Origin: Pocillopora verrucosa
Lineage: Eukaryota; Cnidaria; Anthozoa; Scleractinia; Pocilloporidae
Reading direction: 5' to 3'
Assembly (NCBI RefSeq): GCF_036669915.1
Contig: NC_089321.1
Span: 2,198,316 to 2,262,315, forward strand
DNA: 64,000 bases
The position numbers and the translations under genes are program-made. This document shows positions 16,701 through 62,286 of the stretch, piece by piece (the stretch's first letter is position 1; each line of letters opens with the position of its first letter). The notes below the pieces were generated by a model. That model saw only the letters and a program-made list of their open reading frames with translations, did not search any database and was not told the DNA's origin.

Positions 16701-19578
16701 AGTCAGGATGAATACAATTTTGTCTTATTCACGATGTTGATTGAGGATGTGTATTTACAGCGACGCCAAATTGGATAGAGGTGCTAAATACATCAACACT
16801 TAGATAAAGGGCTTTATTTGTTTTAATGGGCTTTTTTTCCCGGTAGCGTTGATAAACAACATGCTAGCCAACTGGACTTCTCAACTGTTACAGCAAAACA
16901 ACGTGCTTATGCCTTCGGAGAAGCCAGTGACAGCTCGCTCGCCAGAAACCAAAGGGTCCACAGAGAGGAAAACTGTTAAATCGACTACTAAACCAGACCT
17001 AGAAGTGATCGAAGTGGACTTTGTTGAGCCCACGTCACAAGGTAACACGAATGAATGGTTTGTGTGTTCAGGTTCTACATGTAGATATAGGGTTCAGCAA
17101 AGTGTCACCTCAAAAGAACCGACTTCTAGCAACCTCTCACTTGACTCGAATGTTGACCTACTATTACTGACCATTAACGATCAGTTAACTTAATCTGTAG
17201 CCTTCGAGGATGGCTCTTTTGTAGACGTTTTAAGCGGCGAAGCTGCTCAATATGAATGAATGAGACGAAAATCGCGACATCCCTTCTCGCTTAGAATCAA
17301 TATCGCCCTCATTCATCAGTATTCATCGAGTGCTTAGAAAACCGCTTGCGATCGACTAGAAAAACTTATTTGCTGTATGCTATTGATAACCTCCAGTCCT
17401 CTCTTTATTCATTCTCCTTTTTGAATCTTGTTTGTTAGATACGTCCGTCAGTATACCCGTTCCCATTGCCCTCTACCCCCTCAATGGCAAATACAAAACT
17501 TGGGACGTCAGTGGACGGAGCAATCCCAACGGTAATGCGCACGGGGTTCGACTCGCCCCAGGACCAGACGGAAATCCTCAAGGCTCGTACCAGTTTTCTG
17601 GGAAGAGTAGCAGCTTCATTGCATTTCCAAACAAAGGTGCACTGACTGCGAAGTATTCCATAACTCTTCTTGCCTGGGTTAATGTCGAGTCTAAAGGTGG
17701 ACCTATATTTAACTACAATCCGAAGGGGTGGGGTGTTAGTTTGTGGGTCAACTCAAAACTTTTCCTCGCCGCTAAATTTATTGAGGACGACAGCGCTTGC
17801 AGGACGTGTTTGGTTAGCGCGCTGCCTTTAAAAGAAAACGTGTGGAGTTATGTGGGGATGTCTTACGACCGTACCAGTGGCATTGCCAAGCTCTTGGTGA
17901 ATGGACGTGTGAGTAGTAAGAGAAATATTGGAACAACGATTGGTGATCTGTCAACATCATGGAATGTGAGGATGGGCGCTCGCGCTACGAAGGACGGGAA
18001 CTATTTTAAAGGTCGGATATCCCGGATGCAAGTCTACGACAGGGCACTGACTCAACGTGAAGTCGAGGTTGTTTCAAGTACTCTCACAGGTAAATTTCAT
18101 CACTTTCGTCCAACTGTTTTAAGTCTACGGTTTGTCTATCAGCACTCGTCCAAGTGGGTTTAGTGTGTCTGCAGCTGTCTTCCTGCCTCAGTCAGTCTGT
18201 CTGTCTCTATTTGTCTACCTTTGTGTCTATCTATTAGTCTAATAGTCTGTCGACCATCTCTTAAAGGGTCTTTCTGGGGTTAATCTTTAGCCGTGAAACG
18301 ACTAAAATCATAGTCGTCAGGCGTAAAAATTGACATGCAGATTTAAAGCATTAGAAGTAAAAAAGGCAAACTATAAAAAAGATTTATTTAAGTCAAAACG
18401 GAAAGAAATTAATCGTTAGCCATAAAATGGCCAAAATTTTGGTGTAGGCGCATTCTTCGTTATTCCTTTCTTTGAGTTGAAAGAGAAACGAAAGAAAAGA
18501 AATTGAGTCGCCCCTGGTGAAAATTTCCGACTCATATGCTGCATGATTGCTTATCTTTCGATTGGCATGAATATCTTTCTTATTTATACTGACTTCCTCG
18601 GTGAATAATCAGATCTACCAACAGGGTCGTTAAAAGCAGGTTCCTGCTCAGACTGACTCACCTAATGACCTAAATCTTATTTTCTGTCCTACAGCTGGTA
18701 TCTGCCCACAAGGATGGACGGGATTTCACTCATCGTGTTATTTGTTGTTCAACCGGTTGACAAACCAGTGGAATCACGCTAGACAGGTTTGTCGGGAGCA
18801 CGGAGGAGACCTGGTCAAGATCGAATCTCCAGAAGAAAACCATTTCGTTTACACACTGGCATATTCCAAAGCTGCCGATAAAAAGTATGTAAAGCCTTTT
18901 ATTTCAAAATTCATCTAGAACTGCGACATTAATAACGATGTGAATGATCATTATCGGATGTGTTTGTACAGGGAAGCCAAGTTCATTCTCCGTCAAAGTT
19001 TCGGTTTGTGCAACTCACATAGTGGCGAACATAGCTTGGTTTACGAGTTGAAATTTCCTAAGTAAGTCCGAAACTCAAATTGGTGAACCGCGCTGAATTT
19101 CTCATAAGGCAAAATCCGTCTATCTAACTTAAACTGTTTTCATATGACGAAGTTATGGGAGAAAGCATATTCACGAATTAATTTTCTCGTTGTCTCAAGG
19201 TACATGTGGATAGGCTTGCTGCGCGGCTCGTCGAGCGAGCAGTTTGCCTGGGTACACACATCTCCTCCAATCCTGTATTCCAATTGGGCAATTGAGGAAC
19301 CGAACAACCTTCATGGACGAGGCGAAAACTGCGGCCATATTTACATCTGGAAGGGCGATAAGGCCATGCAGTGGAATGACGAACTCTGTGTCAACCCGAC
19401 AATTGGTCCAATGATTTTCATGTGCGAGATGAAACCATTGGATCTCGAGCTCAAACCGATTAACTCTGGAAATTCAGTCATCGAGGGAGGCTCCGGTGAA
19501 GGGGAGTCTGGGTCGGGAGAGTCCGCGAGCGGATGGGCCAGTGGAGACGTCAACACCTTCCCGTCCAGACTGGACTAA
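13765..19578 (+). CDS. Type II membrane protein with LamG-like and C-type lectin domains
   Basis: Five exons in consistent phase: 13765-14149, 16847-17041, 17439-18089, 18695-18884, 19200-19578; 599 aa. The in-frame opening upstream has no ATG, so ATG 13765 is the start. A short cytosolic head is followed by one membrane helix (about 17-39) with no signal cleavage motif, predicting a type II anchor. A charged, Ser/Thr-rich stalk runs to about 195. Residues 200-405 form a concanavalin/LamG-3-type jelly roll (ALYPLNGKY, YQFSGKSSS, LLAWVNVES). Residues 414-551 form a C-type lectin domain with WIGL (477-480), EPN (507-509) and WND (532-534), the set that usually gives calcium-dependent mannose-type binding. 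The tail (about 556-599) is Ser-Gly and acid rich. It is probably a surface glycan receptor; ligand and role are not known from sequence. Confidence 0.88.
15745..15790. repeat. Near-perfect hairpin, 20-bp arms
   Basis: GGGTTTTGCTTTTGTTCCGC, then the 6-base loop GATTGT, then its near-exact reverse complement (15771-15790). It lies in the first intron of the lectin gene. It may be a foldback remnant or a structured RNA element. Confidence 0.8.
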
Positions 19579-24204: not shown

Positions 24205-27200
24205 TCATGTGCGAGGTCGTTTTCTGGACGCTTCTGACTTGGGTGGATCAGCATGCATCACCTTCAACTTCATACCAAGAACTTCATGGCCATGCATTCC
24301 TTCAATGGCTGCATCTGCAGACTCCTTGCTTGCGAACTTGGCATAACCAAAGTTACGATCTTTCATCATCCACACATCAATCAGGTTCCCAAACCTGCTG
24401 AAGACATCCTTAAGGGCACTTTCTGGTGGTGGGGCTGGTTGACAAACAATAAACAGTCTTGAAACAACCTCAGAGGTTGGATCTGCCAAAGGAGATGGTG
24501 CTGGAAGAGCTGCTGAAGTGTAGACAGCAGTAGAGTAGTCCACTGCATATGAGCCACCAGTGAGAGATGATTTAGAGCCGTGCGACTGAATCTGAAAAGC
24601 TGTGTCACTACCCTGCCCTGTACCATTACTGCGCATTCCAGGAGGATCTTCCGCATATTTTACCACAAGCTTTGAGCCCAATGGGTATTCAAACCCATTG
24701 AGTTTTTCCTTAGCATAGATTGCAGATCCTACAGAGTTGTATGTGACATAAGCAAAGCCCTTAGATTCTCCAGTGCCATAATTCCGCTTCAAATCGCACA
24801 TCTGCATACCAGGAATGATGTCAAACAAGCGCGATAATTGCTCTGCCCCTATCATAGGGGACACTTTAACAAACAGCCTGGTGGGGGTATGTGACGTTGT
24901 AATAGACTCTGCAACTGCTGCTACAGGGTTTTGAGTTCCATAGTAATCTGCAACTCCCTGAAGCGATGCAGCATTATTCACATTCATGCTGACTGTATGG
25001 CTGCTGACTGGTGCTGCCGCAGCCTGAGGGTAATTATTTACCTCTAGAAATGGATTGTGTGGGATTAATGTAGATTGCATGGCTGCTGCTGCAGCTGCTG
25101 CATTTCTGGCAATTTTAGCTGATTTGGGCTCAGCCCAAACAGCTTTAAGAGTCTTGTCACAGTTCTCAAGTGCAACAGCTGCTGCAGATGACTTCCTGAA
25201 CTTAACATATCCAAAACCTTTGTTTTCACCAGTTTTATGGTCACGTACAATTTGGACATACTCTATCTCCCCAAAGTCCTGGAATTTTTGACGTAAGTTA
25301 TCCTCTGTGTACTCTTTTGGACAGATGATGAATAAACGGGTCAGTGCTGTTTCATCATGAAAATCTGTTTTAGAGCCTGAACCTTTAGACTGGGCAATCA
25401 TCGCCTAAAAACAAAATAATAAAAAATGTTCTTATTAGGTGAGAAGCAAGAAAGGTTGAATTCTAGAGATCTAGAGTGCCAGTTTCTTTGTATAAGTGAC
25501 AGATTAACCCTTTTACTCCCAAGATCTAATTAGTAATTCTCCTTACTATCTGCCATACAACTCTTATGATGCTAGTTCAGAGAATTTGGTATTGGATCAA
25601 CTAATAATCCCACGATTGATATTCTTCTCTATTCTCATCACCTGCCTGCTTGATATTGTATTGATATTGTAAGGAGAAATTCTGTCTTGATCACTTGTGG
25701 GAGTGAAAGGGTCAAGGTAAAATCTGGGCAAAGCACTCCCAAAAGAATGTGTACCTTTTTAATTAAGTTTATATCTTTTTAAAAATAATTGTAAAACATT
25801 TTTGATACATTCATTTGTTTATAAAGGTTCCAATTACAATTTTTTTTTCACAATAAACTTTGTTTATTTCCAACCTCAGAAAAGCCCTTTGTGCTTTACT
25901 GAGGAATTGTTGACCAAAAGTCCAACCAGCCATCACCATTTTTCCATCCTGCCAATTTTGAAGGCAGCTGGCCCTTAGCGACAAACCCTGATCCCTCATC
26001 TCACTCCTAGGGCAGTACCTTAGGCAGTGAGCTGTGATAACATCTTATTTCACACAGGGTATATAACACATCCATAAATAAAAAATCTTTTTTCTGATCT
26101 TCAATTCATTTGAAAAAAATACAGCACTGGTAAGTCCTACAAAAAACCATTGTTTGAGAGGCTAATGGACAATGCCATAAAGAGGTTCACTTAATATTTC
26201 AATAAACCAAGAGTTGATAGTACTTAAAAAAAAAGAATCACTGGCACTAAGAGAAAAATCAATTTTAATCTTACTGGCATACTGACTAATTACCATTTGA
26301 AGAAACTTGATGCAAACCATGTAAATTTGCTTAATGAAGAAATATTGGCTGATGAGAGATATTGTAAGACCCTAAGGTGAAAGACATATTAAAATCCTAA
26401 ATCTTCAACAGCATTTACATAATCTCCTCTTATGTTGAAAGAAAGATATAGGATTGAACAAGAAAAAAAGGCTTGTTATTGTAATGTGCACCTACAATTT
26501 TGGTACAAGTACACAAAATACTACAAATACAAAATTAGTTTACAAGTTTAGCATTAAAATATTTTCATATACCCGATAGGTTTCAATAATAAACTAATTG
26601 TTTGCCATCAAACATAAACGAAGGAAACTAATACTAAAAATTCCTCTTCTCATGAGGACATGAAATATAAATAACCACTGTTGGGTGCCATCTGCAAATT
26701 CAGTGACACTCATATAATTTTCAAACACCTAATGAGCAATTTTGCTTTTTTCCATGTTAGAAACAAAACCTGGACTTGAAAGAAGCAATTAGTGATATGA
26801 ACTTAATTGACTCTCATAAAAGCCCAGAAGAAAGTGAAAACCTTTCAAAAGTTGTCTTACTATGGGGAAAAAATGTTCTGTTATGTTTACATAACAACCA
26901 ACCTTTCCATATAGCACCTTTCAAACAAAAAAACCCAACTTTTCAAAGATTGAAAATATAAAGATTATCTTGAAAGTAAACCTTTTAATTAATGTTACAG
27001 ACATTTTTGATGCACTCATCAAAATTTCATTTTGAAAATTAAGGAAAAATTAGTTTTAGAAGCTTCACCTTATCAAGATTTCACGTCACTCAAAAACACT
27101 AAAGCAAGAACAAGCTATTTCCTATCAATTTTTAACAACTTTCTCTTGGTGAGATGAACAAAGAGCTCTTGGAGTCTGTAGGGGCATTTTGTAAATTTAT

Positions 27201-40499: not shown

Positions 40500-43400
40500 A
40501 TGGCAACAATAACAGCAAGACGAAATCAAGACAAGATCGCCGAGAATCTGGAGCGCGAGACTCACTGTTAGTATGGCAATTATTCTTATATTGCACGTAT
40601 TTCTGTGGTGTATCCAGTTGACTTGTACTTCTCGCATCATGTTTGAAATTAGCTGCTGCTCTCTTCTCCACTGCACTGAAAAGTCCCATGTAATCTAACC
40701 AGGCAGTTGAAAATGCTTCCAAAACTCATTTTGCTCTCAGTTTTGAATTTTTGCATCAATTTATCAAAAATTAAATATTCTTACTTTGTTGAGTTTCTGA
40801 CTGTACGTAACTTAGCGATGAAGTGTTCGAATTCGAAAACTGATCGAGCACCTACCGATCATAGAGCTTTCCATCGTCTTACGCCAGTTTAGAGTCAAAC
40901 GGAAGTAACGATGATGATATCAAATATTTTATTAGGTTAATTTTGATATTATGGGAAATTGACGTCAAGGAATCCCCAGATTCTGTGGTAATGCCCGATA
41001 CTCGGCCACATAGGTGTAGCTAGAGACCATCAGAATGCTATAACTAGGCTATGAACACGAGAGGTAGAACTAAATTGATTATTGTTGCTGAATTATAGCT
41101 TAAACAGAGCCCCTTCCCCATCCAGTTCTATCTCTGATTATCTTCCCTCGCCCTCTTTTGTTTGATGTAACCAGTATGATGACAGGTGCTTAATAGTGAC
41201 ACCACATGCAGCAATCCAGTGATCCTTAATGGATTTGGCTGTATTGTCAATCAGCATCACACCTGGGAAAGGAGACCAATCAGTGTTCATTTGGGAACAT
41301 GGTGCAAAATAGAAATTACATGAAGTGAGATCTAGAATGCACAATGCTTTAAAATCATCATGATTATTTATATGTTGATGTCAAACAATTTAACTCATAA
41401 TTCGCATTTTGTTGAATTAGTGTATTTCATGGTGATATTGTAACAGAATGGATTTTTGATGATTTTATACTTAAAATTTTGCTCCAACTGGGTTTCAGTT
41501 TCTGGAGAGGAGGTCAAGAGCTTGTTAGGAATGTTTGAAAATAATGCAAAGAATGGGAAAATGGATAGGACAACATTTAGAGACATATTGTATAACGATT
41601 TTGGACTGACAGAGGATATCATTATGGACAGAGGTGAGCTTTTTCTTAATCATGATGATGATTAATTTTCTTTCTTAAATGAAGTGAGCCATTATCAGTA
41701 GTGATAAATTCAAGGCTTTCATTCAAGGTCATTGAAAAAAAGTTACCAAATCTCTATTATCCATGTACACCTTTAACTGATCAAGACAGAATTTCTCCCT
41801 GTGCTATCAATACAATATTTAGTAGAAAAGTGATGAGAATAATGAGATTAATATCGATTAAAGGATAATTAGTTGATCCAATACCAAGGAGAATTTCTAA
41901 GGTCAGATTTTAGGAGTGTAAAGAGTAACCTCCCTTTAATGAGTATATGGCATTTGCAGATAATTTCACTATTATCATGGTTAATGGTAATCTTTTGTAA
42001 AGTCAACTTATGAGCCAGAGGGCCAACTGCAAAAGTTCATAGCCCTCTCTGAAGACTGAAGCAATTGGGAATACCACCACTCCTCTCCTCCCCCCTGGAT
42101 GGGATCCCAGTCCCATCAAGTGAAGGCACATTCTATCCCCTTTGTTTACTAGTCAGAGTCCAGGATTTTCCCCATGTTGCCCTCTCACAGAGCCAAACCC
42201 ATGATTAATATCTGCACAGATAATGAATCAAATAATTGATCTGGGCAAAGAAATAGATCTAGGTGAAATCATGCACATATATACATGTAGATCACTGTTA
42301 CTTTTTTAACCTCAAAAGTAATAATTGACTGAGTCAGATTGCCAGACGAAAAAATGTTCAGGTTGAGGTCTGACGTAGAGCTAAATATTTTTTGTTCTGA
42401 CCCACAGTAACTTGGTCAATGAATAGATACTTTTTTTTGTATGTTGCAAGAGGCACAGTGATCACACCACACACTGGCTCTGGAAATTGGCTTATGCAGC
42501 CTTTTCACTCCTCCTTGTGCCATGCTAATACAAGGATTTTTGGTAGTGTTTTTGGTAGAGTATGAGCTGCATGATGTGGATCATTCAATATTTAGTGCTT
42601 ACTGTTAGTAGCATCCAGATAGTGTACATGTAAGAAAGCCACAGATCAAGATAGTTGTTGACATCATTAACCTACTATACAAAGGTATATACTAATTTAT
42701 GAATTTATTTTTATTTTTTAGTATTCCGAGTTTTTGATGAGGATAATGATGGCAATCTTAATATGAAGGAGTGGGTTTGTGGCCTGTCAAAGTTTCTAAA
42801 GGGAACATTTAAGGAGCAAATGGATTGTAAGTTCTAGTTAACAAAAGTAACTAAAAACCTCATCATAATGATAATGCATCTACTGCATATCCACAAATAA
42901 GGACCTAGGGGCTTATTTTATAATTTGAGCCAAAAAGAGGGGTGCTTACCAAAAGGAGAGTGCTTAATCTAGTGAGTTGCTTATTATTCACCTGTACTGA
43001 TTCCACTGTAGTTTAAGCGAAAAAAGTTGTAATTTAAAGTGGCAATAGAAACAGGTTTTTCCTTGTATCCCCACTATATTCAAGGAAGTGAGGGTGGAGG
43101 GGGCAGGCTTTTTTTTAAGAGGGGCACTTATTTGGGAGAGGGCACTTATTTTAGGGAACATAGAGTCTCGATCAATAACATACCATTTTTTATATTCCCC
43201 TAACCTTGAAACTGAGTAACATTTTCAAAAATTTTTTTTTTCCTTACATAGTTTGTTTTAATGTGTATGACCTCAATGGACAAGGCTACATATTACGAGA
43301 ACAAATCCAACACATGTTAAAAGAGTGCATGGTCAAGGTAAGTTCAGGGGGGAGGGGTTCACAGACCAGCTAATGACATCTGCACCACAACCACATACAG

Positions 43401-45027
43401 TTAACGGGGTTCACAGACCAGCTAATGACATCTGCACCACAACCACATACAGTTAATTGTGCAATCTAGCTATTTTGTTATTAGTTGTGATGGTGTTCAA
43501 ATTTTTTTTCCCAGTTTAAAATTGTTGAAAAGAGTATGATTTTCACTCTCCTTTATCTTATATTCTGAATGTCTGAAATGTGGAATTGATCTATAACTTT
43601 TTGAATTAGGAAAAGTTTCAAAAACAGAAGCTCTAGGGAATGCTTGTTTCTGCCATTTGAGGGTTGTACAGTGCCCCCCCCCCCCCCCAATACGAAGGGC
43701 CTAGTAGTCCATAATGGGGGATAACACTATACATGAACCTAAATGACACACACTGTAGATTGGATTCTTTTAAATTTAATCAGAATTCCAAGGTTTAGTT
43801 TGTGAGATTTTGCTACAGGGGGGGTGAAGCAATTCTCCCAGCCAACTCATGGAAAGGCTCGCAGGTCTCTGCTAGTTGACTCAATTTTAAAAATTCTGCA
43901 GAAAAAAAAGGAGGATTTTGCAGCCAATGCAGACTATTTGTTTTTTCTTGACCCTCAGTCATCAACTGAAGAAGATGCAGATGAACAAGTAAAAGACCTT
44001 GTTGATTTATCGCTGAAGAAAATGGTGTGTTCTGGGTTATATGCTTGTCTGATACATGTATTTAAGTTTCCTCATCACAGGAAGTGATTCAACCATACAG
44101 GTCTTGGACTGTGTACAGTTATTTGTAATTTTCCAGAAAAAATATTTTTAAGGTACATGCTTGGATTAACTTAACAAATTGCTGATTTATATTGCAAACA
44201 AAAAGAGAGTGACACAGATCAATGTTAACAAGAAAGAGCAAACCTTGATTATTGAAAACTTTATTTTGCCAACGCACTGGATAACTGTGATAATCTTTCA
44301 AATAACCAATCCCAGTTTAAAGAAAATAAGAAATTTGTTGTTTCTAATATTTTGCTCACCAGGATGAGGATAAAGATGGAAAGATTTCACTAAATGATTT
44401 CAAAACTGCTGTAACCAAAGAGAAACTTCTCCTGGAGATATTTGGAAAATGTCTGCCTGGATCCAAGGTTTGTACTACCTTGAATTAACAGACTTGTCAC
44501 ATGAGAAATGTCCTTGATTCTGGTCTTTGCAAGCATGCTGGCATAAAATTGATGAGACTAAGATATGTCAAGCAGGTGGTTAGTCAGGCTTGCACCATGA
44601 AGACTTTTGTCAATCCCCCCCCCCCCCCCCCACCTCTGAGAATCTCGTCATATATGTCTGAGTGTATAATGTGTTGAGAAAAGATGAAATCACCGGTCAG
44701 AGTAAACGATGATCATCTTCAGTTCCCTTTTGACTTTGTTGCAGAAGTTTACAACCATTAGGTTTTGTCACACAATGCCCTTTCTTCTCCAAATTTTGTG
44801 ATGAGACCTAAGAACTGCTGCATAGGAAATTATTTGTTGGCTGATTGTGGTGTGCCTTTTCTGTATTTTGGCAGTTGATAACTGCCTAACTGTCCATGAG
44901 AGGGAACTATTTTTCACTTTTTCTGCTCGTTATTTTCAGCATCATGTGGCTAGTTGTTTGACTATGTATATCTTCCTTTTCATTCTAGGAAATAGCAAAA
45001 TTTCTTCAGAGTTTTGCAAGCTGTTAA
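40500..45027 (+). CDS. CLXN: Calaxin (EF-hand protein of motile cilia), 7 exons
   Basis: Exons: 40500-40566, 41499-41633, 42722-42826, 43252-43337, 43959-44024, 44363-44467, 44989-45027; 200 aa, close to the 211 of human CLXN/EFCAB1. Family signatures are present: [50 protein letters not shown] and [16 protein letters not shown]-hand loops are at 73-84, 109-120 and 154-165. Calaxin is known to bind outer-arm dynein and tune ciliary beating with calcium. The second loop has Gln at positions 5 and 12, where acidic residues normally bind calcium. The open frame upstream of exon 5 (43824-43958) is intron: the acceptor at 43958 gives the family-correct join [12 protein letters not shown]. The short last exon ([12 protein letters not shown]) is placed by phase and acceptor and is somewhat less certain. 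Confidence 0.92.
41765..41928. repeat. TTAACCC-family copy, degraded ends
   Basis: CACCTTTAACTGATCAAGAC at the left and TAGGAGTGTAAAGAGTAA at the right; interior GTTGATCCAATACCAAGG matches 47101-47307. In calaxin intron 2. Confidence 0.65.
42899..43167 (+). repeat. Dispersed GGGCACTTATTT-type repeat
   Basis: Recurrent motifs GGGGCTTATTTTATAATTTG, GTGCTTACC, GTGCTTAATC, GGGGCACTTATTTGGGAG and GGGCACTTATTTTAGGG. Related in reverse to 8500-8615. In calaxin intron 3. Confidence 0.5.
43354..43456 (+). repeat. Tandem duplication, 52-bp unit, two copies
   Basis: The unit starting GGGGTTCACAGACCAGCTAA and ending CCACATACAGTTAA occurs at 43354 and 43406 with essentially no differences, just after the calaxin exon 4 donor. 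Confidence 0.95.
43674..43688 (+). repeat. Poly-C homopolymer (15 C)
   Basis: Uninterrupted C run in calaxin intron 4. A 17-C run lies at 44615-44631 in intron 6. Confidence 0.9.
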
Positions 45028-46642
45028 TAGTAAAGAGTGCCATTTTAACTACCATTAGAAGAGACAGATCAATCTTTGTATGTAAAGTAGCCCAACTTTG
45101 ATAGTTGTTGAATAAAAAATAATGAATAGGGACTCATTCAACACTTAAACATTAGTTTTTCCAGTCATCATCAAACATAGCTGGTAGCAAAGGAACACTT
45201 TTTTCTTAATGGTACATAAATAAAAAATTCATATTGAAGACATCCATTGTAAATAGGAGCTGAAGAAGATGGTTACATAAGCTTTTTTCATTCTGAGAAA
45301 TAACAAAATTGCACAGTACATGTAAGTTAGAGGTCATACTTGTCTGATGAATAATAAAGAATGCCATACCAATTGTTATGAAACTCTTTTGGTGTGCAAA
45401 GTATTTTCTTGAAATAGTTTTATAGTTTTTGTGGACCCAGCCATGAGCTGGCCCAATGAAGTGAATTCATGCAATGCTATTGACTACCCAATCAGGCAGA
45501 TCTTAAAACCACAGACAGGCACTCAAATATATGACTGCAAAGTATTTTTTTTTGCCACCTCAAGAAAATTTGAGACAAGCCAGGGAGAAGTGTGTTGGGA
45601 TTCTGACACTAACCTTTCAGTATTGGACCCCTTACAGACTTCTTGCCAGTTTATGCAGCTCAATGTCCCATTATTTCCCGCAAGTGAAAAAGTGCTCATA
45701 GGGAAGGCTCATTAATGAGGACCTGTTTGCATGCTAGGCAGATCATTGTGATCAATCCTATGACCACCTGTCTTCTTTTTAGACAACCAAGCTTGGCTTG
45801 TTTGGCCAGGCTTAAAAGACACAGACAGGGAATGTCAAAACATGCCTGTTCACAGCTGTAGTAATTTATCACAGTATAAAACATACAGCTTCTGCATTGC
45901 TTGGGTTCTTTGAAATTGCTATTATTGTGTTTGTTTCACTCTTAAGAAACAGGCAGCAATTCATTTTATCTAGACCTTTATCAACTCGATCTACTGGCAG
46001 CCTGTTTAATATGCTTTATTTTGTTATAAATCCACAAAATACATCTAGGAAAAGCTTATTGTAGATCAATTTCTATGTTTATTATTCTGGCATGTCATTA
46101 TTTTATAAATTTTTTTAGACAAAAATTATCATACATTGAGCTATTTAAGGATACTAACTTTGCTTGGAAAAACTTCTACTAACAGTAACTGCAACAGTAC
46201 CATATGTGGTATTAAACACTATGAATACCTCTACCTCAGAGCTATGTGTAACTGCTGTAATAAAATTTATGCTTTTTCCTTGATTTAGAGGTTCACAGAT
46301 TTAGTTGAGTGCTTCATTCTAACCTTCTTGTGGCTCTGGGCCACAAATAATCTCTGATTTCTGTTATTTGAAAATTGATGGAGAAAATTTTATCCTTGTT
46401 TTGATCGTGTTAAGAGGTAGAAAGGTAGAAAGGTAGAAGTTTCCAAGAGTGGGGAATCTTAACAATCAACCATGCAAAACTGAAAGCCAACAGCAACTTC
46501 TTCAAAAGTATTTCAATTTCATGAAATTAAGGGATTTTCTATTGATGTCATACATTAATTGTTCCAGTAGGAACTTAATCAGTGCCAAAAGTTAGTTTAA
46601 AAAAATCCCTCTAAGTGGCTCTTTCAGGAAACATTTACTTCT
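45028..46642. other. Convergent intergenic region, about 1.6 kb
   Basis: Lies between the 3' end of calaxin and the 3' end of the secreted-protein gene. A poly(A) signal (45111-45116) fits calaxin. A diverged second copy of the calaxin terminal exon region lies at about 45277-45420. No gene is supported. Confidence 0.6.
45111..45116 (+). terminator. Putative poly(A) signal of calaxin
   Basis: AATAAA in GTTGAATAAAAAATAATG, 84 bases after the stop codon. Confidence 0.5.
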
Positions 46643-49600
46643 TCAGTATTTCTCACAATCAGCAGAGCTGTACTGGGTGCAAATGGAGTCACTGGTTTCT
46701 TCTGAGTATTTTGGCATTTTGTCAAGTCCAGCTCCTATAAAAATAGTGAAAAGCAAAGGCATAATTTGGCCAATTCAATAAACATTATATAAAATAATGT
46801 GATATAACCATAAAGATAATAAGGTATACTGATTAGATCAATTAGTACTGTAATAACCTAGGGGAAGACAAAATGAACAGTAGAAAGAAGAAATAGCAGA
46901 AGGATATAGATTAAGAACAATTTAGATCATCTTTTCTTTGCCAAAATGTAGGGTTGGTTACCAATGAAACACTAACTTTGTTACAGGTAACAGGCAGATT
47001 AATTACCTTACACATTAAAAAAGCTAAATTGTTTGTATGTTAAAAGGACAAACCTTGAAATAAGTAAAAGAAATAACATGATTTTGGGTGCAATTTGGTG
47101 TTAACCCTTCAACTCCTGTGAGTGACCAAGACAGAATTTCTCCTTACAATATTAATAAAACATCAAGCAGAAAAGTGATGAGAATAAAATATCAGTTAGG
47201 GGATTAAAAGTTGATCCAATACCAAATTCTCCAAACTTACATCACAAGAACTGAATGGCAGACAGTAAGGGGAATCACTAATTAGATCTCAGGAGTTAAA
47301 GGGTTAATAAGTACAAGTGAACTTTTCAAAGACAACAATATTGCATGAGCACTTGTTAATAAGGTACATGAAAAAACATCACAGAAAGTCGAGATGATGA
47401 AATTTTGAAAGCATGTGTGCATTCCTTTTCAGCCAATCAGAAAGGCATAATTTTTCATGTACATTATTACCAGGGGAAATTTTCACACAAATAGTATCAA
47501 ATGAGATAATACTATGTAAAAAACCAAAGCAATACTGGATTACTAATGACACTCAACAGGAAATTGCTCTGTGTATACTACTCAGTTTGACAGTCTCATA
47601 CCAGTGATCAAGTTGTGAAGGTTACAGTAGTTTGTACCATAGTCCAACACAGCATACCAAGTTTCAGAGGTGGAATAGCCCTGAAAGAAGGCGTAAAAAA
47701 GATGTGCAAAGTAAAAATCTCATGTGTTGATCAATTTGAAGCTTCAACATCCACACCCCCCCTCTCCCTAGGCATTTTAACTTATGAAGACTGTTTTGTT
47801 CAAATTCCCAACTTGATAATTCCATTCCACTTTCCCACCTCTGCTGTGCAGGGACAACCGTCAAATGCCAAGGGGTTGCCCAATGGGGATGGGGATGTTG
47901 AAGCTCCAAATTGATTGGGGCACAAGTATTGGAACATTCATTTTATATATCCCGTGTCTGTAGATGGTGAATACACATTACATAAGACAAGGCTTAGCAG
48001 GTCTATGGTTTTATATTTCATCTATTAACACCGATTATGACTACAGTGTACTTCGATGTCTTACTTAGCCTAAAGTTCAGAAACCTGCCATCAGATCACC
48101 TCACAAGAGTAAGAAAGTTGTGCACAAGAAGCCACATCACTACCAGAGAATTTATTTCACATCACTCTCTTTCAGAAATGTTGCTTTTTAAGAATGGTAA
48201 CCTTACTGAATGTTTACTAAGTGATTTAATTTATATCATGAACCTGTAAAGATATCGAAAAATGATTGGTGCACATCTAAGAACTGTGGTCAACCACAAT
48301 CAAAGCATCAAAAATGTTTCCATCAACCCATCAATATTGACCCACTAAATGCCAAAGAGAAGCAAAGATGGAAGATTCTCTCTGCATGTTATACTCAAGC
48401 CAGCATCTTTCTTTCCTATATTTCCATTAGTTTCCTAAATGAGGGAACAACACTTTTATCAGGGGTGAGGTTTTAACAATAAATTTGTTTTAGGCCATGG
48501 CCCCCTTGACTTTTTGTAGGTAAGAGGGAAATATGAATTAAGGAAACTATCTTTATAGCCAGAGAGGTGATTGGATGTCTTCTAAATATACTTGCATTTT
48601 GTTTTATTAGCCTGGAGAATCTCATACCTCTACACTGCACAGTTCAGTTCCATTTGCAGTAAAAGTAAATGTGAGGTCATCTTTGTAGTGCTTCTTGGGC
48701 GTCTCATGGATTGCTTTGATTTCAGTATCAGTCTGACTTTCTAGCTAAAGAAGTAATGATCAAAAACCAAAAATATAAATAGAATTAGAACATGGCATAT
48801 AGTAGAAATAGTCAAGGCTTTACCTTCAACTGAAAATATTCCCATCTTGATTTAAGAAAACAACTGTTGTGGCCAGAGAAAATTTACTGAGTTGGCTACA
48901 TCACAACAACCCTACACAGTAACAAGGCAGATAAATTTGAAAATCTCAATATTCTCTAACGACCCGACATTTATTTTGATCTATGGGAGGAGGTTTTATG
49001 AAACAATGGTTGGGCTTCTACGTAAACATACCGTATAAAGACACTTTTCCCCTTTACCATCTGGGCAGGTTTCATTTGAATGCCACTTCTGAATCTGGTT
49101 AACAATGGCATCATTAACCATACTGCATTTTACTGCCCAAGACCTGAAAGATATGTATCAAGTAACTTATTTCAAAGCTGACACAAAAACGGTTTTTTTT
49201 TAACCAGCAATACCTTGAACCTGCTGGCAAATATGGTAAGAATACATCTGCAAGACAGACCTGGCTATTTTGAAAAAAAAATATAACCTGCTCTTACAAG
49301 TATGATGAGTATAACCTATAACAAGTATAACCCGCTCACACAAGTGTAACTTTTCATTTTTCTTTGTCCCACACTCATGACAAGACAAAAAACATCTTTC
49401 TATAATTCTTTACCAAGCTGAAAACTTACCATCTCTGTAATTTCTATCTACAAACATTACATTGCTGACATTGCCGATCCTAGCAATATGCAGGACGCAT
49501 GTCATATGAACTTCATAATAGACCTTGCTCACCACAGAGTCTTTGAGGCTCAGTGGTAGAGCATCAGAGCATGGAATCCAAAGGTCTGAGGTTCAATTCC

Positions 49601-50340
49601 TCATGAGGACTCAGAATTTTTTCTTTTCCCACACTCATGACAAGACGAAAACACATCTTTCTTTATTACACAATAGAGCTCCCATGGTTAAAACCAAAAT
49701 GCACAGATTACACACAGCTACTGATTTGGTTGTCCTCCCCTTTTTTTTTCAATTTACTAACTTGCCCTTGATTTGATTAAAGGAAAGCCATGTGACTTGA
49801 AGGGTAGTAACCTGGCAGCTTATCTTTCCAATAGCAAGCAATATGGGAAATGACAGCCTTCGCAGAAGACATGTAACTTTGGCACTTTGGAAGACAACTT
49901 CGGAAAAGTTTGGTGACTCCTTTGAATGTAACAATGGTAGGAGGTGCCATACTTCAACTTTTTATTTTTAATGAAGAATGAGAAATGTAGGTTTTCTGCT
50001 GTCTAATTCTCCTCTAAATTTTTTAGTTCCTGACTGCATTGGAAGACCTACGAATCGTGCAGATATTATATGTTTATAGATTTGGGGTAGATCACTCGGA
50101 AGTTTGAAGATATACATATTTATTAATTAAAATGGAGAGATGAAAACTACTTTTAAGATTAACATTTTGTATTATTCAACCAGTTTCGAGTGAGCTATGC
50201 GTGATCTGATATTCATGAACGCAGGTATCTTACGTAATCACATTCCCTTACCAATTTATTTTGCAAGACGCATGTAGAGGCCCTAAGCTGCCTACTGCAT
50301 GGAAGACAACCATGAACATCAGTGAGAGAGTTAATTTCAT
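46643..50340 (-). CDS. Secreted eight-cysteine protein of an unnamed family, 5 exons
   Basis: Minus-strand exons found by reading splice sites: 50340-50252, 49143-49032, 48744-48628, 47680-47602, 46734-46643. All phases agree and the 162-aa frame ends at TGA (46645-46643). Residues 1 to about 20 form a signal peptide (MKLTLSLMFMVVFHAVGSLG). The mature part has eight cysteines and three N-glycosylation sequons (NWS, NET, NGT). Conserved-looking segments are HYKDDLTFTFTANGTELC, STSETWYAVLDYGTNYCN and SDSICTQYSSADCEKY. From memory, this combination resembles small uncharacterised secreted proteins common in cnidarians; I know no function. No membrane helix follows the signal peptide, so it is probably extracellular. 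The longest exon is only 117 nt, so simple ORF scanning misses it. It starts 196 bp from divergent NMT and ends convergent with calaxin. Confidence 0.85.
47101..47307. repeat. TTAACCC-type element copy
   Basis: TTAACCCTTCAACTCCTGTG at the left and AGGAGTTAAAGGGTTAA at the right, in the last intron of the secreted-protein gene. Confidence 0.85.
47740..47935. repeat. Dispersed repeat related to 4790-4930
   Basis: TTGATCAATTTGAAGCTTCA lies just upstream, followed by a C-rich block, GTTCAAATTCCC, GTCAAATGCC and GGGGATGTTGAAGCTCCAAA. The same blocks occur at 57130-57250. In the intron between exons 3 and 4 of the secreted-protein gene, next to exon 4. Confidence 0.5.
49357..49670 (+). mobile_element. 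Dimeric tRNA-derived SINE (plus strand)
   Basis: A first unit is represented only by its tail (TTTGTCCCACACTCATGACA, then AACATCTTTCT). A linker with TGCCGATCCTAGCAATATGC follows. Then comes a tRNA-like head, GGCTCAGTGGTAGAGCATCA with B-box-like GGTTCAATTCC, and a second tail (CCCACACTCATGACAAGACG). In intron 1 of the secreted-protein gene. Confidence 0.75.
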
Positions 50341-50536
50341 CTTAAAGCACGTGGAAGGATATCTGCAAAGCAATCAGTTCAACACTGATAAAAGTTGTGA
50401 AGTTATCTTGTAGACGTCATGTGACATTGAGCTGTGTCAATCATCGACAATAATACTCGAGCATGACTGAGCATGATGGGAAGGTAACCCTCGAGTAGAG
50501 ACTGGGTCAGACACATGTGCACCATTCCTCTTCAAG
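50341..50536. promoter_or_regulatory. Compact bidirectional promoter region (secreted protein / NMT)
   Basis: Only 196 bp separate the start codons of two divergent genes, so promoters and 5'UTRs must share this space. ACGTCATGTGAC (50414-50425) resembles a CRE/E-box-type site; no TATA box is evident. Function inferred from gene order. Confidence 0.5.

Positions 50537-62286
<11,750 letters not shown>

Follow-up and report, generated by a model that had tools for sequence, protein, structure and literature searches.

The window, the whole stretch of 64,000 nucleotides analysed here, harbours a gene of five exons on its minus strand (46643-50340), which join into 489 nt without internal stop and encode a protein of 162 aa. 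We tentatively favour the explanation that this is a real, single-copy spliced gene, and that its product is a secreted, disulphide-bonded alpha/beta domain with a DUF1499-like core, binding a ligand or a partner. As things stand, the gene is nothing categorically new, and adds one more uncharacterised secreted protein.

Gene structure

The hidden five-exon gene that an earlier note had claimed is borne out, as the exons join in frame across four GT...AG introns and give the 162-aa protein. The introns 1-4 measure 1108, 287, 947 and 867 nt, calculated from the exon coordinates, and split the codons in phases 2, 0, 0 and 1. A stop codon is present in frame 12 codons upstream of the ATG, and candidate poly-A signals are found downstream. 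The features are listed below; each of the five exons is also matched in the search of the own genome.

50252..50340, minus strand: exon 1, coding part, with the ATG, the hydrophobic leader and C26, ending in codon phase 2
50266..50340, minus strand: predicted signal peptide, no longer than residues 1-25, cleavage placed by the -3,-1 rule
49032..49143, minus strand: exon 2, from part of residue 30 to residue 67, with C36, C56, C64 and sequon N53
48628..48744, minus strand: exon 3, residues 68-106, with KHYKDDLTFTF, C103 and sequon N98
47602..47680, minus strand: exon 4, residues 107-133 (the last in part), with TWYAVLDYGTNYCN and C125
46643..46734, minus strand: coding part of exon 5, from part of residue 133 to residue 162, with CTQYSSADCEKY, C151, C159 and the stop codon TGA
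46015..46083, minus strand: two candidate poly-A signals AATAAA, with 5' ends at 46083 and 46020, 560 and 623 nt past the stop

Features of the predicted protein

The signal peptide, the eight cysteines and the three N-glycosylation sequons announced in the earlier note were all found in the joined protein, the first as a hydrophobic N-terminus (mean hydropathy 1.64 for residues 1-19) corresponding to a predicted leader. The cysteines are located at positions 26, 36, 56, 64, 103, 125, 151 and 159, with 9, 19, 7, 38, 21, 25 and 7 residues between successive cysteines and no CCC. The sequons are the N-x-S/T sites N29 (NWS), N53 (NET) and N98 (NGT); since N29 lies near the likely cleavage site of the leader, two would be the safer count. 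Secretion of the product is very probable. The predicted mature protein has about 138 aa, 15.6 kDa and a pI of 4.9, and contains zero arginines.

We infer that the mature protein forms disulphides, is glycosylated and folds as one compact domain. Read by eye, its secondary structure includes a helix (residues ~38-50) and strands at residues ~62-71, 74-83, 88-99 and 100-109, followed by a turn or helix at DYGTNYCNLHNL. No catalytic motif was recognised by eye in the protein.

Resemblance to DUF1499

DUF1499 (PF07386) is the sole family that Pfam lists for the protein as a whole, with an E-value of 0.018 and 15.9 bits against a cut-off of 22.6. The match places residues 67-128 of the protein (62 residues) on positions 52-108 of the 114 positions of the profile. 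Trimmed pieces, picked after the match of the whole protein was known, gave E-values of 0.0066 and 0.0057 (17.3 and 17.5 bits, below the cut-off of 22.6). The matches of trimmed pieces to CTD1 and DUF5301 (E 0.032 to 0.14) were judged to be due to chance. Masking KDD abolishes the DUF1499 match, and masking DYGT together with YCN leaves a match of 12.4 bits at residues 67-111; both halves therefore contribute to it. No Pfam family was listed for a piece of 51 aa that contains KDD and DYGTN and lacks the first strands.

Column conservation of DUF1499 was taken from an alignment of 38 out of 80 fetched bacterial sequences, numbered after the bacterial locus L010. Among the fully or almost fully invariant columns are F100, D102, D103, R118, S119, S121, R122, G124, D127, G129, N131, R132 and R134. 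The core [FY]-x-D-D, S-x-S and D-x-G-x-N is present in the same order in our protein, as Y87, D89, D90, S109, S111, D119, G121 and N123, in a correspondence that takes small insertions and an alignment that is not statistically secure. The arginines of the family (R118, R132 and R134 invariant, R122 nearly so), G124 and the CPxxPNC start are all absent from the protein; where DUF1499 has CPxxPNC, it has C26 and C36, separated by nine residues.

The same secreted, disulphide-bonded protein could quite plausibly have a fold unrelated to DUF1499, that of an animal cysteine-rich domain, with a role as an extracellular, mucus or skeletal matrix component or as a secreted signal. In agreement with this alternative, the DUF1499 match falls under the cut-off and does not surpass the top one of ten Pfam controls, which comprised nine shuffles and one reversal of the mature protein. 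The best controls reached E-values of 0.014, 0.03 and 0.047, the reversal reached 0.12, and six out of the ten gave no family. As one control in ten scored as well against another family, the E-value alone is insufficient for homology with DUF1499. A profile of 80 bacterial DUF1499 loci also speaks for an unrelated fold, as the protein obtained no score of note from it (-1.4 bits for the best piece, 6.5 for the best out of 2000 shuffles); the loci were fetched with a bait sequence as the 80 closest to it out of 497 confirmed relatives, and the set is therefore narrow. The same holds for hhalign of the single sequence against DUF1499, which scored 13.6 in the register of Pfam, a comparison in which at least 10 out of 200 shuffles reach 15.05, and for the PDB searched by sequence, where the three matches listed, the best with E 0.58, were judged to be chance. 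Nevertheless, the DUF1499 match runs for 62 residues across the most conserved motifs of the family and recurs with trimmed input, whereas the two best control matches span just 14 residues (MFA1_2, E 0.014) and 22 residues (E 0.03).

A DUF1499-like core in the protein is thus a real possibility rather than a likelihood. We do not file the protein under DUF1499, because of an E-value insufficient by itself, the negative results with the bacterial profile and hhalign, and the missing arginines. A search of the own genome with DUF1499 returned nothing at E <= 10, and the same search also misses the separate exons of this gene.

The bacterial DUF1499 protein at L010:1399-1863 was modelled as a helix, four strands and a helix (pLDDT 89), and bacterial DUF1499 is predicted to be a KA1-like alpha-beta4-alpha domain. 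The order of helix and strands read by eye in our protein is the order of this model. The solved folds nearest to the model include KA1 domains and the N-terminal domain of BamC, and START-like proteins, e.g. 2ffs, are also among the fold matches listed for it; that a family is missing from these fold lists carries no weight. Fifty-six out of the 80 bacterial DUF1499 ORFs possess a lipobox or some other hydrophobic segment at the N-terminus according to our own thresholds, 21 possess neither, and three were unassessed. The search with phmmer, using a consensus sequence, revealed no solved DUF1499 structure (best E 0.54), and in the full-text literature searched DUF1499 was found solely as a table entry, one in each of two papers.

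Proposed role of the protein

In the explanation that we favour, the small soluble protein would enter the secretory pathway and shed its leader, and the mature protein would be held by up to four disulphides. It would consist of one compact alpha/beta domain whose core resembles DUF1499 and which has acquired extra loops with cysteines, ahead of strand 1 and at the C-terminus. Outside the cell or within a lumen, such a protein would bind, without catalysis, either a partner protein or a ligand that is small or lipid-like. Ligand binding, suggested by comparison with domains of similar predicted shape, is in itself rather unlikely.

A related proposal, possible but less likely than not, is that the gene represents a secreted branch of the DUF1499 fold in animals. 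In this branch the exported bacterial core would have stayed outside the cytoplasm, the arginine cluster would have disappeared and as many as four disulphides would have been acquired. If true, the DUF1499 family would comprise animal proteins as well as bacterial lipoproteins, and its function could be sought in the animal branch, with the small protein as a tractable handle.

Coding potential and splice sites

We have very little doubt that the five-exon gene is real, and it is very probably active. The main reason for taking it as real is the agreement between phase, splice sites, leader and protein features. The codon score, trained on other likely coding stretches within the window, sums to +9.9 bits for the five exons. 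The null consisted of 5000 random sets of intron pieces with exon-matched lengths, each in its best frame, and had a mean of -54.0, a standard deviation of 12.5 and a maximum of -9.5; as the intron pieces were allowed to hold stops, this comparison is biased towards the gene. In the frame of the gene, exons 1-5 score -4.1, +2.1, +8.0, -1.1 and +5.0, the highest score corresponding to exon 3. Exons 1 and 4, both below zero, are individually without coding signal. Another open frame of exon 5 scores higher (+8.2 vs +5.0), and in exon 1 another frame is slightly higher (-2.6 vs -4.1). Ranked with a splice-site consensus, the donors of the four introns are 4, 9, 7 and 15 among 291 GT sites; among 287 AG sites, their acceptors take places 20, 18, 1 and 8.

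A crude spliced-gene finder exceeded 100 out of 100 dinucleotide shuffles at intron penalties of -15 and -17, and its score was reached by four out of 100 shuffles at -19 and by seven out of 100 at -21. These settings, -15 to -21, had a minimum exon length and higher intron costs; with too low an intron cost the finder gave an over-spliced path, which scored above 150 out of 150 shuffles. The whole five-exon chain was not recovered in any of the four penalty settings. Exon 3 was found exactly and the donor of exon 2 was used in three out of four settings, the acceptor of exon 5 was used in all four, exons 1 and 4 were used in none, and exon 5 was always read in the other frame.

The exons 1 and 4 without own coding signal, the better score of exon 5 in another frame, the failure of the finder to give the chain and the shuffles that reach its score at strict penalties are in agreement with a chance chain of exons or a dead gene, from which no protein is made. 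Nonetheless, this alternative is very improbable, as the five exons are all open and in phase, their donors rank 4-15 of 291 and their acceptors 1-20 of 287, and their summed codon score exceeds 5000 out of 5000 null sets. The in-frame stop upstream, the poly-A signals downstream and the position between two genes of known type also stand against it. The real gene supports raw reading of the sequence as a way to genes whose exons are too short for good ORFs.

Genomic context

The gene is located between a calaxin/EFCAB1 gene, convergent to it, and an N-myristoyltransferase (NMT) gene, divergent from it, and therefore sits within normal gene territory. The calaxin/EFCAB1-like EF-hand gene occupies ~41500-45027 on the plus strand, its last exon ending near 45027, and a joined 120-aa piece of it matches solved calaxin and EFCAB1 chains with E-values of 1.4e-42 to 1.5e-41. 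The NMT gene, also on the plus strand, covers 50537-60194 and perhaps extends beyond; 55985-56152 (+) matches NMT (E 2.7e-29) and 60025-60192 (+) matches NMT_C (E 2.1e-19). We take the end of the exon starting at 50537 (+) for the start of NMT, and Pfam lists no family for this exon. The start codons of the two divergent genes enclose a short spacer.

50341..50536, no strand: head-to-head spacer of 196 bp between the start codons, candidate shared promoter (putative role)

No TATA[AT] was found on the minus strand of this spacer.

Other elements were observed in the introns and elsewhere in the window. Intron 1 contains a tRNA-like element at 49539-49611 (+), with 37.6 bits for Rfam tRNA and no call from ARAGORN, which may be a tRNA-derived SINE. 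It is adjoined by a 36-nt repeat at 49616-49651, a second copy of which, 89% identical, is present at 49356-49391. Intron 3 harbours an inverted repeat (47730-47760 / 47885-47915) with 31-nt arms that are 90% complementary, and stretches resembling it by eye are found near 57130-57520. The open frames 17432-18160 and 19144-19575 (+) match Laminin_G_3 (3.3e-18) and C-type lectin (9.5e-07), and a long open frame at 24208-25401 (-) contains three RRM stretches (8.2e-41).

Copy number and related sequences

The protein search of the own genome (353,415,432 bases in 52 contigs; six candidates scored) found five places at E <= 10, which correspond to the five own exons. The motif T-N-Y-C-N-(L/I/V/M/F)-x-N-(L/I/V/M/F), searched as a DNA pattern, has a single occurrence in the genome, in exon 4, so that neither the protein search nor the pattern detected a paralogue. 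Similarly, tblastn within the window returns the five exons alone, the next best match having E 1.3. From these sequence searches the gene seems to be single-copy.

The protein has no match above the cut-off in Pfam and none in NCBIfam, which agrees with its earlier description as a member of an uncharacterised family; the strong constraint also claimed for two of its blocks is putative. PHROGs gave a single match, to a tape-measure protein (E 0.086), judged to be chance, and the phage collection gave no match to the protein. A plasmid match from Azospirillum (E 3) was dismissed: its locus has two ORFs of at least 80 aa, one per strand, and both are in frames other than that of the match, which was therefore judged to be chance. 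Among viral contigs, the protein query led to five stretches by pattern, none of them confirmed, and the query with the DUF1499 alignment led to 33 stretches, also with zero confirmed. One motif pattern gave no stretch in the viral contigs, and a looser one gave nine, all nine in stop-to-stop frames of 15-54 aa without likeness around the motif. NYCNLHNL and six other peptide strings were not found in the full-text literature searched, a weak test, as such strings are seldom printed. Similar sequences are presumably present in other eukaryotes, and orthologues may well already figure in public animal annotations as uncharacterised proteins.

Comparison with known systems

The small cysteine-rich proteins (SCRiPs) of stony corals resemble our protein in being secreted and cysteine-rich. 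The SCRiP products described in the source have 41-48 aa (40 in some table rows) and the cysteine spacing Cx6-7Cx4-6CPx3-6Cx4-6Cx5-6CCCx2-5 (PMC2652719). Despite the secretion, the eight cysteines and the presumed coral origin, membership of the SCRiP family or identity with another nematocyst peptide is extremely improbable, and by the sizes and spacing given in that source SCRiP membership is contradicted, as the mature protein has about 138 aa, another cysteine spacing and no CCC.

The likeness to lipocalins, with whose folds a comparison had been suggested earlier, consists of about 160 aa with a leader and a WY motif, and a lipocalin reading found no support. The WY is located here in the C-terminal third, and no lipocalin was listed by Pfam at E <= 10, a search in which the HMMER filters drop most weak matches. 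Lipocalins possess a GxW motif near the N-terminus; the tryptophans of our protein are at positions 30, 32, 50 and 114, none of them in GxW.

The link from our protein to KA1 domains and to the N-terminal domain of BamC runs solely via the model of bacterial DUF1499, and the KA1 domains in the list come from intracellular kinases, unlike the predicted secreted protein described here. With DUF1499 itself the protein shares a collinear weak match, the aromatic-x-D-D / S-x-S / D-x-G-x-N core, the apparent order of helix and strands, and likely export. It differs from DUF1499 in a score below the cut-off and in lacking the conserved arginines and the CPxxPNC start, and it possesses eight cysteines and, at its C-terminus, an additional tail with CTQYSSADCEKY, encoded by a five-exon animal gene.
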